Positions 15,630-46,487 of a stretch of 48,591 nucleotides of DNA are shown here, piece after piece. Source of the stretch: Parvibaculaceae bacterium (GTDB lineage Bacteria; Pseudomonadota; Alphaproteobacteria; Parvibaculales; Parvibaculaceae); NCBI GenBank assembly GCA_029209985.1, contig JARGNZ010000020.1, forward strand, positions 11,140 through 59,730, read 5' to 3'. Each line of letters begins with the position of its first letter. Within the stretch, counting starts at the first letter, position 1. Both the position numbers and the translations under genes were made by a program. The notes under the pieces are model-generated. The model had not been told where the DNA came from. It saw only the letters and a program-made list of their open reading frames with translations, and made no database searches.

Positions 15630-16436
15630 CTAATCGAATCCTCTTCGTTTTGTCCCGATGAGCGGCACAATTTGTGCGCCCAGAAAAATAACAAGCGCGG
15701 CCACCACAATGGAAGGGCCGGTGGGCGTGTCATAGGAAATGGATCCCCACAACCCAGCCCCTACCGCGCAGACACCAACCACCACAGCGCCGAGCGCCAT
15801 CATCTCTGGCCCGGTGGCAAATCGGCGGGCGGCAGCGGCCGGAATAATCAGCAAGGCGGTAATCAGGAGCGCCCCCACAAGGCGCATCGCAACGGCCACA
15901 AGCACCGCCAGCATAAGCGCAAAGCCAATGCGTGAAAGCCGCGGAGATATGCCCTCGGCAGCAGCTATTTCTGGGTGAACTGACACCGCAACAAGAGAGC
16001 GCCACAGCAAAGCCAGAGACCCCAGCACCAGCACGGAAGCGGCGGCCATCGCCCAAAGGTCCGTGGGGCCAACAGCTAAGATGTCGCCAAATAGATAAGC
16101 GTTGAGGTCAAAGCGCAAACCGGGCATCAGGCTCAACACCACCATGCCAATGGCAAGCGCAGAGTGAGCCACAAGGCTGAGCAATGTATCCATCGCCAAT
16201 GACATACGTTCCTGCAAACTGGCAAATAAGAGCGCAAGCAAAACGACAGCGCCTAAGACCCCAACCAATGGGGCAATGGAAAGGAGAAATCCCAGTGCAA
16301 TGCCAAGCAAAGCCGAATGGGCGAGGGCGTCCCCAAAAAAGGCCATACGCCGCCACAGCACCAAACAGCCAAGAGGTCCGGCAATAGCGGCAACCATCAA
16401 CCCTGCCAACAAGGCCCGTACTAAAAAATCACTCAT
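15630..16436 (-). CDS. znuB: Zinc ABC transporter permease ZnuB
   Basis: Inner-membrane permease of the ABC-3 family, 268 residues, about eight or nine hydrophobic segments. The LWRRMAFFGDALAHSALLGI block near the start and the ALLIIPAAAARRFA segment are hallmarks of zinc and manganese permeases. Its ATG at 16436 overlaps the znuC stop as ATGA, and an AAGGA lies five bases before it, so the alternative ATG at 16442 is not chosen. It works with ZnuC; the binding protein ZnuA is not in the window. It is the last gene of the zur-znuC-znuB unit. Confidence 0.93.
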   Translation of the reverse strand: MSDFLVRALLAGLMVAAIAGPLGCLVLWRRMAFFGDALAHSALLGIALGFLLSIAPLVGVLGAVVLLALLFASLQERMSLAMDTLLSLVAHSALAIGMVVLSLMPGLRFDLNAYLFGDILAVGPTDLWAMAAASVLVLGSLALLWRSLVAVSVHPEIAAAEGISPRLSRIGFALMLAVLVAVAMRLVGALLITALLIIPAAAARRFATGPEMMALGAVVVGVCAVGAGLWGSISYDTPTGPSIVVAALVIFLGAQIVPLIGTKRRGFD

Positions 16437-17236
16437 GGGCATCCTTCGTGCGCTTTAGCGTCGTGCTCGTGTGGGTGCACATGCCCATCTAAATCATGAG
16501 CATGGTCATGTTGGTGGTGGTAGAGCGCTAAACTTTGCCCCGCTTCAATGCCAAACAATTCGCGGTAGGCAGGGTCATTTGAAATAGCATCTGGCGCCCC
16601 TGCGCAACACAGATGTGTGTTGAGGCAGAGAACGCGGTCGGTCGCAGCCATCACCACATGTAAGTCATGGGAAATCATCAGCACTGCAACACCCGTTTGG
16701 TGGCGCACATTGGAAATGAGATCGTAAAGTTGGGCCTGCCCAGAAAAGTCGATACCCGATGAGGGCTCGTCTAAAATAAGCAAATCCGGCTTGCCAAGCA
16801 GGGCGCGAGCCAGCAATACCCGTTGAAATTCTCCACCGGAAAGGTGCGTGATTTGCCGCCCAGATAAATGCGCCGCCCCCACCTGCTCAAGCGCATAGGC
16901 GATCTCTGCCTTTGAGGCCCGCTGAGTAAGCTGCATCAACCGATCAACAGATATAGGAAGCGTCGGGTCGATGGCAAACCGTTGCGGCACATACCCGGTT
17001 TTAAGGCCCGCGCGCCGTGTCACTGTGCCTCCATCTGGCTGCACGGTTCCAATAGCAACCCGCGCCAGCGTTGTTTTCCCAGCACCATTGGGGCCAATCA
17101 CTGTAATGATTTCACCCGGTGAAATTTCAAAAGAAACTTGGTCGAGTGCGCATGTGGTGCCCAATCGGACAGTGATATCTGACAGCTGCATAAGGGGGGC
17201 GCTGGAGGCGGGCGCAGAAGCGAGAGACGCGCTCAT
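16433..17236 (-). CDS. znuC: Zinc ABC transporter ATPase ZnuC with His-rich tail
   Basis: ATPase subunit of the zinc importer, 267 residues. Walker A GPNGAGKTT (48-56), signature LSGGE (132-136), Walker B LLILDEP (152-158) and the switch His190 are all present. The C-terminus (about 240-263) is packed with His and Asp residues, including HHQHDHAHD, and may bind zinc to sense or buffer it; ATPases of other systems usually lack this. The gene starts three bases after the zur stop and overlaps znuB by four bases, so the three genes are probably one transcript under Zur control. Confidence 0.94.
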   Translation of the reverse strand: MSASLASAPASSAPLMQLSDITVRLGTTCALDQVSFEISPGEIITVIGPNGAGKTTLARVAIGTVQPDGGTVTRRAGLKTGYVPQRFAIDPTLPISVDRLMQLTQRASKAEIAYALEQVGAAHLSGRQITHLSGGEFQRVLLARALLGKPDLLILDEPSSGIDFSGQAQLYDLISNVRHQTGVAVLMISHDLHVVMAATDRVLCLNTHLCCAGAPDAISNDPAYRELFGIEAGQSLALYHHQHDHAHDLDGHVHPHEHDAKAHEGCP

Positions 17237-17239
17237 AAG

Positions 17240-17719
17240 TTAAATATCCTGACAAGCGGCACATAGGCCTTTGATCTCAATAACGAAAGAGTGAATTTGA
17301 AAGCCTCGTGCCTGTGACGCATTTTTGAGCGCTGAGGAGACAACTTTTTCGTCAATTTCTTGGGCTGTGCCGCAGGCGGTGCAGATAAGGAATTGTCCGT
17401 GATGCTGCCCGCCAACGTGGGCGCATCCTAGAAAAGCATTCTGAGATTCGATCTTGTGGATCAATCCATTTTCCTGCAAGAAATCCAACGCGCGATAAAT
17501 CGTCGGGGGCTTGGCCGCTTGGTGCGTTGTGGCCAATTGCTCCAAAAGGTCGTAAGCCCCAACAGGCTTATGGTTTTGCCAAATCAAGCCGAGCACTTGT
17601 TCCCGAATAGGGGTCAGGCGCACGTTGCGGCGTTCGCAAATCAGGCGAGCTTGTGCCAACGCATCATCAATACATAAAGAATGATCGTGTGGTTGAGCAG
17701 GGCTGTCTGTAAGCGGCAT
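17240..17719 (-). CDS. zur: Zinc uptake regulator Zur (Fur family)
   Basis: Fur-family zinc-dependent repressor of 159 residues. The winged-helix part includes RNVRLTPIREQVLGLIW (31-47) and PPTIYRALDFLQENGLIHKI (71-90). Structural zinc cysteines are Cys113 and Cys116 (CTAC) with Cys153 and Cys156 (CAAC). Cys99 and His101 in LGCAH, and nearby histidines, fit the regulatory zinc site of Zur. GGAG lies seven bases before the ATG. It heads the zur-znuC-znuB unit, and a Zur-like box at 17756-17770 lies just upstream, so it probably represses its own unit when zinc is plentiful. Confidence 0.92.
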   Translation of the reverse strand: MPLTDSPAQPHDHSLCIDDALAQARLICERRNVRLTPIREQVLGLIWQNHKPVGAYDLLEQLATTHQAAKPPTIYRALDFLQENGLIHKIESQNAFLGCAHVGGQHHGQFLICTACGTAQEIDEKVVSSALKNASQARGFQIHSFVIEIKGLCAACQDI

Positions 17720-18433: not shown

Positions 18434-18594
18434 AGGTTAGGTGTGAAGCCGGTGCTGACATGTCTGGTCAAGTCGAGGCGCATCAATTGGGTATCATTGT
18501 TAGTTCCTAATTAGAACCCGGTCAACCCTGAGGTCGTCTAGTGTCGGTCGTGCGCAAGATTGACTTGAAAGAAGGCCTTGCCGTAGGTTGAGCC

Positions 18595-19362
18595 ATGTGC
18601 GGTCGCTTTTCCATAACCTCCCCTCCCGAAGAAATGCGGACGTTGTTTAACTATGTTGAGCAACCCAATTTTCCCCCACGCTACAACATTGCGCCAACCC
18701 AGCCAGTGCCAATTGTGCGCATGGAAAACGGACAGCGTCATTTTGCCTTGGTGCGGTGGGGGCTGGTGCCCGGTTGGCAAAAGGAAGCGCCAAAGTCTCT
18801 GCTCTTTAATGCCCGCGCCGAAACCATCAACCAAAAACCTTCTTTCCGAGGGGCTTTTCGCCATCGCAGGGCATTGCTCCCGGCAGATGGGTTTTACGAA
18901 TGGAAAACTGTTGGACGAGGGGAGGACGCATTTAAGCAACCTTATTATGTCCGTAGGCGTGACCAGCAGCCCTTTGCGATGGCGGCCATTTGGGAAGATT
19001 GGTTGGCCGCAGATGGCAGCGAAACTGAAACCTGCGCCATCATCACAACACGGACCAATGATACCCTGAGGCCCTTACATGCGCGGATGCCGGTCATATT
19101 GGCACCAGAAGATTGGGAGCAATGGCTGGCAAGCGACGGCACCACGACTCATGCCGCTGAAGATCTATTACGCCCGGCCCCTGAAAGCCTCCTTGAGCTT
19201 TTTCCCGTCGATAGAGGCGTCAATAAAGCCACCGCTGACCATGCAGGCCTCAATGACCCTTTGCCCGATGAGGGCGGAATGTCATCGTCTCCCGCCAAAG
19301 CCGGGAGCAAACAAAAATCTGATAACAGGAAAGTGAGCAAAGACCAATTTGACCTCTTTTAG
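18595..19362 (+). CDS. yedK: SOS-response-associated abasic-site protein YedK/HMCES
   Basis: Protein of 255 residues that forms a stable thiazolidine crosslink with abasic sites in single-stranded DNA through its N-terminal cysteine, protecting replication. Cys2 (after removal of Met1), Asn31 in RYNIAPTQ, Glu102 in GFYEW and His162 in LHARMPV are the expected active-site residues. The C-terminus ends in QFDLF (251-255), after a low-complexity linker of about 25 residues. This resembles a beta-clamp-binding motif and would tether the protein to the replisome. A weak AGG-containing site precedes the ATG. It stands as a single gene. Confidence 0.93.
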   Translation: MCGRFSITSPPEEMRTLFNYVEQPNFPPRYNIAPTQPVPIVRMENGQRHFALVRWGLVPGWQKEAPKSLLFNARAETINQKPSFRGAFRHRRALLPADGFYEWKTVGRGEDAFKQPYYVRRRDQQPFAMAAIWEDWLAADGSETETCAIITTRTNDTLRPLHARMPVILAPEDWEQWLASDGTTTHAAEDLLRPAPESLLELFPVDRGVNKATADHAGLNDPLPDEGGMSSSPAKAGSKQKSDNRKVSKDQFDLF

Positions 19363-45110: not shown

Positions 45111-46487
45111 TTAGTGGCCTTCTTTTGCAACCCAAGCAGCCGTATCATCAAGCGCCTTTTCAACGCGATCAAACATCTCGTTAATTTCCGCTTCGGTAAT
45201 GATGAGCGGTGGACAGAATGCAAGAATGTCGCCTGCCATGTTCCGCAAAATCACACCGTGTGCTTGGCACGCCGCCGCCAGTTTCACACCCACAGCCGCT
45301 GATGGATCAAAGGCTTCGCGTTTGGCAGGGTCTTTGGCAAGCTCGATTGCGCCGAGCAATCCCTTAGCCCGTGTATTGCCCACAAGTGGGTGATCGCCCA
45401 ATTTGGCAACCCGTGCTTCAAAGGTGGGTTGCACACCGCGCACCACATTGACAATGTCCATGCGCTCATAAATTTCAAGGGTCTTGGCGGCAACGGCAGA
45501 GGCAAGCGGGTGGGCTGTATAGGTGAAGCCGTGGCCAAATACGCCAATTTTGCGGCTTTGGTCTAGCATGGCTTGATACATATCTTCGCCAACGGTCACC
45601 GCGCCAATCGGCACGTAAGCCGAGGACAGCGCCTTAGCCACCGAGATGGTGTCAACCTCCATGCCGTAAGTTTGAGCGCCAAACATATTACCCGTCCGCC
45701 CAAAGCCACAAATCACTTCATCCGCAATCAGGTAAATGTCGTACTTCTTCAAAACCTTTTGGATTTTCTCAAAGTATCCCTCTGGTGGCATCACCACACC
45801 GCCAGCGCCCATCACAGGCTCCGCAATGAAGGCCGCAACGGTGTCCGGGCCTTCATCTAATATCATTTTTTCCAAATTGTCAGCGCAGCGCTGGGAAAAT
45901 TCTAATTCTGTTTCGCCGTCTTTCCCGTTTTTGTAATAGTGCGGGCTATCCGTATGCAGAATACCTGAAATGGGCAGATCAAAGTCTTTGTGGTTGGCAG
46001 GCAAGCCGGTCAAGCTGGCGGTGGCAACAGTGACACCGTGGTAGCCTTGATGGCGTGCAATGATTTTCTTTTTCTCAGGGCGGCCCTTGGCATTGTTGTA
46101 ATACCAAATCAATTTGATCTGCTGGTCATTGGCTTCAGAACCTGAGCCACAGAACAATACTTTGGACGCCTCATGGGGCGCGATCGCTTTAAGGCGCTCA
46201 GCAAGCTCAGCGGCTTTGGGGTGCGTCTTCCCCGAAAAAACATGGGTGAAGGGCAGGTTCGACATTTGCTCACGGGCCGTTTCAATCAGCTCTTCGTTTG
46301 AATAGCCAAGTGCTGTGCACCATAAGCCTGCCATGCCCTCAATGTATTGCTTGCCATCGCTGTCATAAACATAGATGCCCTCACCGCGTTCAATGATCAA
46401 CGGTCCGCTTTCACGAAACTGGTCAAGGTTGGTGTAAGGGTGAATAACGGTTTCAACATCGCGTTGCGCAGCATTGCTAAGGGGCAT
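45111..46487 (-). CDS. Class III omega-aminotransferase
   Basis: PLP-dependent aminotransferase of 458 residues moving an amino group from an amine or beta-alanine-like donor to pyruvate or another keto acid. FCGSGSEANDQQIKLIWYY (about 115-133) holds the cofactor phosphate, DEVICGFGRTG carries the conserved Asp, and SVAKALSSAYVPIGA contains the PLP-binding lysine. The frame is open back to 46799, but the ATG at 46487 with AGGAG eight bases before it is clear, and the extra part overlaps the amidase gene. The donor is unknown. It sits between an amidase and a small barrel gene on one strand, which suggests nitrogen recovery from amides and amines. Confidence 0.9.
   Translation of the reverse strand: MPLSNAAQRDVETVIHPYTNLDQFRESGPLIIERGEGIYVYDSDGKQYIEGMAGLWCTALGYSNEELIETAREQMSNLPFTHVFSGKTHPKAAELAERLKAIAPHEASKVLFCGSGSEANDQQIKLIWYYNNAKGRPEKKKIIARHQGYHGVTVATASLTGLPANHKDFDLPISGILHTDSPHYYKNGKDGETELEFSQRCADNLEKMILDEGPDTVAAFIAEPVMGAGGVVMPPEGYFEKIQKVLKKYDIYLIADEVICGFGRTGNMFGAQTYGMEVDTISVAKALSSAYVPIGAVTVGEDMYQAMLDQSRKIGVFGHGFTYTAHPLASAVAAKTLEIYERMDIVNVVRGVQPTFEARVAKLGDHPLVGNTRAKGLLGAIELAKDPAKREAFDPSAAVGVKLAAACQAHGVILRNMAGDILAFCPPLIITEAEINEMFDRVEKALDDTAAWVAKEGH

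Follow-up and report, generated by a model that had tools for sequence, protein, structure and literature searches.

A putative β-clamp-binding motif at the C terminus of an alphaproteobacterial YedK/HMCES-type protein

The SRAP gene and its C-terminal tail

The stretch of DNA analyzed here (the window; 48,591 nucleotides of the Parvibaculaceae bacterium assembly GCA_029209985.1, contig JARGNZ010000020.1, positions 11,140 to 59,730, forward strand) carries at 18595–19362, on the plus strand, a gene of the SRAP/YedK/HMCES family. The open reading frame (ORF) is complete, runs from ATG to TAG and encodes a protein of 255 residues starting with MCGRF. Three parts follow one another on the plus strand: a folded SRAP core (residues 1–211, PF02586; 18595–19227), a linker predicted to be disordered (residues about 222–250; 19258–19344), and the terminal pentapeptide QFDLF (residues 251–255; 19345–19359), which its sequence, conservation and agreement with a consensus make a candidate β-clamp-binding motif. 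The Pfam SRAP match over residues 1–211 scores 246.8 bits against a cut-off of 27.1 and is the single SRAP match (E up to 0.001) in the whole 3.09-Mb genome. Cys2, Asn72, Glu102, and His162 occupy the positions of the YedK active-site residues Cys2, Asn75, Glu105, and His160, as these are given in the accessible part of PMC9436759. In an alignment of SRAP proteins (A1), Cys2, Glu102, and His162 are invariant and Asn72 is nearly so.

The boundary between core and tail is marked in an AlphaFold2 model, in which ten-residue blocks up to residue 220 average 88–98 in the per-residue confidence score (pLDDT), followed by block means of 72 (residues 221–230), 49 (231–240), 51 (241–250), and 46 (251–255), with values below 50 at residues 229–234 and 252–255. 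Given means of 46–51 over residues 231–255, the tail is predicted to be disordered and the motif to sit in an accessible segment. The linker varies in sequence and length between close relatives. The protein terminates in NRKVSKDQFDLF, with the TAG stop directly after it.

The clamp-binding consensus is described as QL[S/D]LF or QxxLF, with positions 1, 4, and 5 mattering most (PMC12309361, accessible text), and QFDLF meets QxxLF with Gln1, Leu4, and Phe5. The same source reports QLSLF at the C terminus of Bacillus subtilis PolC, with a free carboxylate, so such a motif can end a protein. Thus, two claims of the initial annotation, that the protein ends in QFDLF after a disordered tail and that this end matches the short β-clamp motif pattern, are borne out by the ORF, the model and the published consensus. 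The genome also encodes a full-length DnaN, which aligns end to end with solved clamps, and further candidate clamp motifs are present in its DnaE (QNSLF) and MutS (DLPLF).

Conservation of the motif and controls for chance

The tail was followed through 285 SRAP loci, for which the better-scoring matches were taken rather than every match; 266 were kept once five identical and 14 partial rows, 12 of the latter from the phylum sample, had been removed. A terminal QxxLF was counted as the strict motif and a terminal Qxx[LMFI][FLI] as the relaxed one. The rows of A1 had been picked for having a tail, so the invariance of Gln251 in that alignment is due to selection of rows and is no evidence; the loci found via A1 (L206–L285) are biased toward tails, and counts were made with and without them. 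One row of unknown class, which ends in QGSLF (L225), was assigned neither to the alphaproteobacteria nor to the others.

Among alphaproteobacterial SRAPs whose family score is 230 or higher, the strict motif ends 110 of 206 proteins and the relaxed motif 142, with 149 carrying it no more than eight residues from the end. At scores of 200–230 the counts are one (strict) and two (relaxed) of ten, and below 200 neither form occurs in two proteins. Outside the alphaproteobacteria the strict motif was found in 4/27 proteins scoring at least 200 and in 0/20 below that. When the alphaproteobacterial rows were limited to those gathered by the Pfam core alone, a selection blind to the tail, the strict, relaxed and within-eight-residue counts were 72, 93, and 99 of 159. 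Alphaproteobacterial representatives at 65% identity gave 39 (strict) and 55 (relaxed) of 117. In the organism's own family, 37 of the 43 copies taken from 50 matches have the relaxed motif (the remaining seven matches, in G001, G011, G016, G035, and G036, are weaker or partial); five of the six others are additional copies, and the sixth is the best copy of G036. One genome of the family, G026, gave no SRAP match. Tail and motif go together, because SRAPs almost without a tail rarely carry the motif: among the 65% representatives, the strict and relaxed counts are 2 and 3 of 39 where the protein extends fewer than 5 residues past the core model, 10 and 15 of 34 with 5–11 residues, and 28 and 38 of 44 with 12–79 residues.

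Position by position, the tails were compared in 45 representatives with at least 12 tail residues, chosen regardless of the motif and anchored at the C terminus. Gln is found at −5 in 38 of these, Leu at −2 in 36, and Phe (32) or Leu (9) at −1 in a combined 41, while −3 is Ser or Asp in 32 and −4 is Gly, Leu, Met, or Phe in 35. Relative entropy is accordingly 3.8–4.6 bits at −5, −2, and −1, 1.8–2.0 bits at −3 and −4, and 0.3–0.8 bits from −6 to −15, where Asp is somewhat enriched at −7 and −8 (17/45 each) and the other positions hold little information. This profile is the QL[S/D]LF / QxxLF consensus. In pairs of proteins with 50–60% core identity (2245 pairs, which are not independent of one another), the linker is 32% identical, whereas motif positions 1–5 agree in 97, 18, 22, 92, and 79%. 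In L030, the nearest relative, the linker has been rewritten and the KDQFDLF end is identical. Agreement of the motif against drift of the linker looks, on the whole, like selection on Gln, Leu, and Phe. Moreover, six relatives have one to eight residues after Q..[LMFI][FLI] (for example QGDLFSP, LQMELFG, and QGNLFKYSNVDKS), as expected of a docking motif and not of a signal needing a free end; a seventh such row (L234) looks like a chance match.

Controls ruled out a chance origin of the motif. None of 1263 other ORF C termini (at least 150 codons, from the same loci as the SRAPs) matches the strict or the relaxed form, and shuffling of the tails of the 45 representatives gave a mean of 0.01 strict motifs (maximum of 1 in 2000 shuffles) versus 28 observed. 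A DNA pattern encoding Q..[LF]F followed by a stop codon (or TGG) has 105 matches in the organism's own genome, compared with 73 for the backward pattern. ORFs were read in 78 regions around matches among the 100 listed of these 105, with the first 30 of the listed TGG matches covered. In these regions, at least seven ORFs of 60 codons or more end in Q..[LF]F, not counting the SRAP gene, and at least three of them reach 100 codons: a PA0069-family radical SAM protein (QMDLF), an ORF that by eye resembles a histidine kinase (QEALF), and an ORF of 127 codons that is probably spurious. A second DNA match to QFDLF plus stop (C42:9282) was discarded, as it ends no ORF of more than 40 codons.

SRAP is present in 103 of 190 sampled alphaproteobacteria. 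A quickly built tree of 127 representatives, of which 59 carry the motif, explains its distribution with 25 changes, whereas 300 shuffles of the labels averaged 42.6 changes and never fell below 33; 61 of the 124 inner branches of this tree are open and many are weakly supported. The motif is therefore inherited in blocks, as clades, with repeated losses or gains. Named carriers include Bradyrhizobium and Bosea (QGSLF), Ensifer and Sinorhizobium (QMSLF), Ochrobactrum (QLSMF), and a record of Agrobacterium vitis (QLSLF). The tail with its candidate motif is thus a widespread alphaproteobacterial trait and no peculiarity of this genome, and the best reading of the counts is that a clamp-tethered shield would be mainly alphaproteobacterial. 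Four SRAPs from two families of the same phylum outside the alphaproteobacteria (L149, L158, L166, and L167) end in QLSLF, QLSLF, QGSLF, and QGCLF, respectively.

SRAP matches were also found in 2112 plasmid records and in 71 phage records; four of the phage records were examined for tails. The SRAPs of SPBc2 (YoqW) and Pseudomonas phage Presto lack the motif, and that of Sinorhizobium phage phi2LM21, whose gene adjoins a gene for an ATP-dependent DNA ligase, ends in QEGLLF with the Gln one place off. Agrobacterium phage Rivra (L400, 1501–2160) has a short, divergent SRAP with a clamp-like QGSLL end, possibly an independent gain of the motif.

Proposed clamp docking and its alternatives

Taken together, these data suggest that the protein is a genuine YedK/HMCES-type abasic-site shield with a putative clamp-binding motif on a disordered C-terminal tether, a reading to which we give a probability of roughly three in four. 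Of the known proteins that come close, Escherichia coli YedK (6KCQ/6NUA) belongs to the same family (phmmer E of 4e-26 to 6kcq) and has the same catalytic Cys2, Asn, Glu, and His. It differs in length: among the six YedK-type chains listed, five have 226–229 residues and the sixth 246, with the matches ending at chain residues 220–240. Human HMCES carries a C-terminal PIP box that binds PCNA and so has the same layout of a core plus a clamp peptide, although that peptide is a PIP box for PCNA and not QxxLF for DnaN, and the HMCES sequence is distant from that of the window protein (E about 2e-16 over residues 24–119). B. subtilis PolC likewise ends in a clamp motif, QLSLF in the accessible text of PMC12309361, but is a replicative polymerase and no lesion shield. 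Caulobacter MutS, a repair protein from the alphaproteobacteria, reaches the replisome through a motif near its C terminus, DLPLF, which it needs for replisome foci (PMC8034640, in the part accessible); it differs in acting in mismatch repair, in its protein family and in the first letter of the motif, Asp instead of Gln. The MutS of the window genome has an identical DLPLF.

The initial annotation had proposed comparing the tails of relatives, and in these the terminal Q..L[F/L] stays while the linker drifts, across many alphaproteobacterial families. Its refuting condition of a tail not shared by relatives was therefore not borne out, and its interpretation is partly supported. It also knew of no such arrangement described for bacterial YedK; a literature search made largely among papers free of subscription found no description of a clamp-binding motif in YedK/SRAP or of a link to DnaN, which is no proof of absence. 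The accessible main text of PMC3765255, which presented SRAP, contains neither "clamp" nor "PCNA," and in the available portion of PMC10366529 "YedK" and "sliding clamp" occur in the reference list only. The protein is classed here as an ordinary member of the SRAP family with an added, widespread and putatively clamp-binding tail that is apparently undescribed so far.

A number of observations, however, weigh against clamp docking. In the PDB, the chains of E. coli YedK stop close to the core and show no clamp-motif tail, although crystallized constructs may be shorter than the whole protein. No SRAP match was obtained in the Caulobacter vibrioides control genome, so that not all alphaproteobacteria have the protein. 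Even when the last eight residues are allowed for, 57 of the 206 higher-scoring alphaproteobacterial SRAPs are without the motif, many of them being tail-less. The most distant tails agree less: at 30–40% core identity (741 pairs), motif positions 1–5 agree in 52, 16, 30, 49, and 42%, with the linker at 24%. The gene has unrelated neighbors, namely a DsbA-like gene, one for a CNNM/CorC transporter, and ABC-transporter genes together with one for a Fur-family regulator, and a scan of six neighbors for evidence of an operon found unrelated genes throughout. The standard alphaproteobacterial LexA box is the direct repeat GTTCN7GTTC or GAACN7GAAC; such repeats lie within 200 nucleotides upstream of 5/206 relatives, as against 0/206 in one shuffle each, leaving a link to the SOS response unsupported. 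In Caulobacter, the MutS clamp motif is needed for recruitment and, by a section title of PMC8034640, not for activity. Finally, position 2 is often Gly and not Leu (QGSLF in 35 rows), and the commonest end in the organism's own family, QMGLF (13/43 copies), bound B. subtilis DnaN at about 78 μM only (PMC12309361, accessible text). A match to the consensus is therefore no guarantee of strength, and many of these motifs may be weak.

In one alternative, the tail is of the clamp-binding kind and is now too weak to matter, either as a relic or, at best, as a contact of marginal effect. The 78 μM binding of QMGLF would fit, as would the repeated loss or gain of the motif (25 changes on a tree with many weakly supported branches). 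However, Gln, Leu, and Phe persist in tails that otherwise change, which needs continuing selection, and we consider a relic unlikely.

The terminal hydrophobic residues could instead form a degradation signal, with ClpXP or Lon reading the -LF or -LL end, perhaps after crosslinking. A crosslinked shield must eventually be removed, the motif stands at the very end in 142/206 proteins versus seven with residues after it, and 16/206 proteins, which also count against clamp docking, end in a hydrophobic pair without the Gln (for example APRLL, EPKLL, and APTLF). Against such a signal, the Gln at −5 is about as conserved as the final residues (38/45) and Ser or Asp is preferred at −3; variants with one to eight residues after the motif exist, and the pattern equals the clamp-binding consensus of PMC12309361, as far as that source is accessible. 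This explanation, too, is improbable.

Weaker still, and very improbable, is mimicry of the acidic C-terminal tip of SSB, by which the tail would dock on SSB-partner proteins instead of the clamp: Asp is enriched at −7 and −8 and 32/45 tails end in Phe, but Pro is outside the five commonest letters at −2, where Leu stands in 36/45, the Gln at −5 plays no role in that model, and the tail of the window protein is basic just ahead of its motif (RKVSKDQFDLF). The SSB tip ends in DDDIPF, with the Pro at −2 as its hallmark. Clamp docking is thus preferred over these rivals because Gln is conserved at −5, six relatives extend past the motif and Pro at −2 is no feature of the tails.

Genomic context, PA0069 proteins and a proposed function

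Within the window, three genes on the minus strand at 15630–17719 encode, in a row, a permease-like ORF, an ABC ATPase and a Fur-family regulator; they look like a znuB-znuC-zur zinc uptake cluster, the permease and zinc names being inferred. Between two divergent genes, about 80–90 bases upstream of the SRAP start, lies GTTCCTAATTAGAAC (18503–18517), an inverted GTTC-N7-GAAC element. It was considered as an SOS control site and rejected, since it is not the LexA box, which itself is found upstream of just 5/206 relatives; the GTTC-N7-GAAC spacing occurs within 200 bases upstream of 2/206 SRAP genes.

A Y-family partner was also considered. Searches of the genome with PF00817 and PF14579 found one Y-family polymerase, which we take to be DinB and which has no clamp motif at its end, and one DnaE-type polymerase. 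There was no further match to either model (ImuB, DnaE2), which suggests that the genome lacks an ImuB-DnaE2 mutasome. An association of SRAP-like proteins with UmuC-like polymerases, reported in the accessible part of PMC12926913, therefore does not obviously apply here.

The PA0069-family radical SAM protein of the own-genome search is encoded outside the window (G000:C34, about 45366–46436, minus strand), has a tail with QMDLF and was assigned by NF033668 (473 bits for a 300-residue stretch). Among 30 alphaproteobacterial rows read for this family, the own-genome protein included (relatives L368–L397, of which L397 is apparently a broken gene), eight have the strict motif and 18 the relaxed one; by eye, nine more have the motif followed by one to six residues (L370, L371, L373, L383, L385, L387, L388, L394, and L396). 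Judged by sequence, alphaproteobacterial PA0069-family proteins carry the same kind of tail as SRAP. The literature search, with the scope given above, found no paper pairing "PA0069" with "radical SAM"; in the accessible text of PMC3765255, SplB-like radical SAM proteins are linked to ImuB-C operons.

If the tail binds the clamp, the terminal QFDLF would fit into DnaN's hydrophobic pocket (one for each protomer, two for each ring), occupying it behind a polymerase stalled at an abasic site. The linker of ~30 residues would give the SRAP core access to the single-stranded template immediately in front of the primer end, where Cys2 would cap the abasic site as a thiazolidine crosslink. The tether would compete with translesion polymerases for the same clamp pocket, and a weak, exchangeable motif would allow hand-over after reversal of the crosslink. 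According to the accessible part of PMC9436759, HMCES is reported to guard against breaks and to inhibit translesion synthesis of the mutagenic kind, and sharing of the pocket with translesion polymerases would have a like effect here.

A wider reading, about as likely as not, is that alphaproteobacteria and, separately, animals (with the PIP box) each added a clamp-docking peptide to the same abasic-site shield, so that tethering arose more than once, and that the alphaproteobacterial set of clamp-tethered maintenance proteins also holds the PA0069-family radical SAM proteins and the phage SRAP ending in QGSLL. The PA0069 proteins are nominated as a second family of candidate clamp clients. 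For SRAP itself, a conserved clamp motif would be a simple and testable answer to how bacterial YedK finds abasic sites at forks, and the existence of tail-bearing and tail-less copies, even within one family, offers a natural experiment. A clamp-tethered SRAP would be a bacterial counterpart to HMCES at the replisome.
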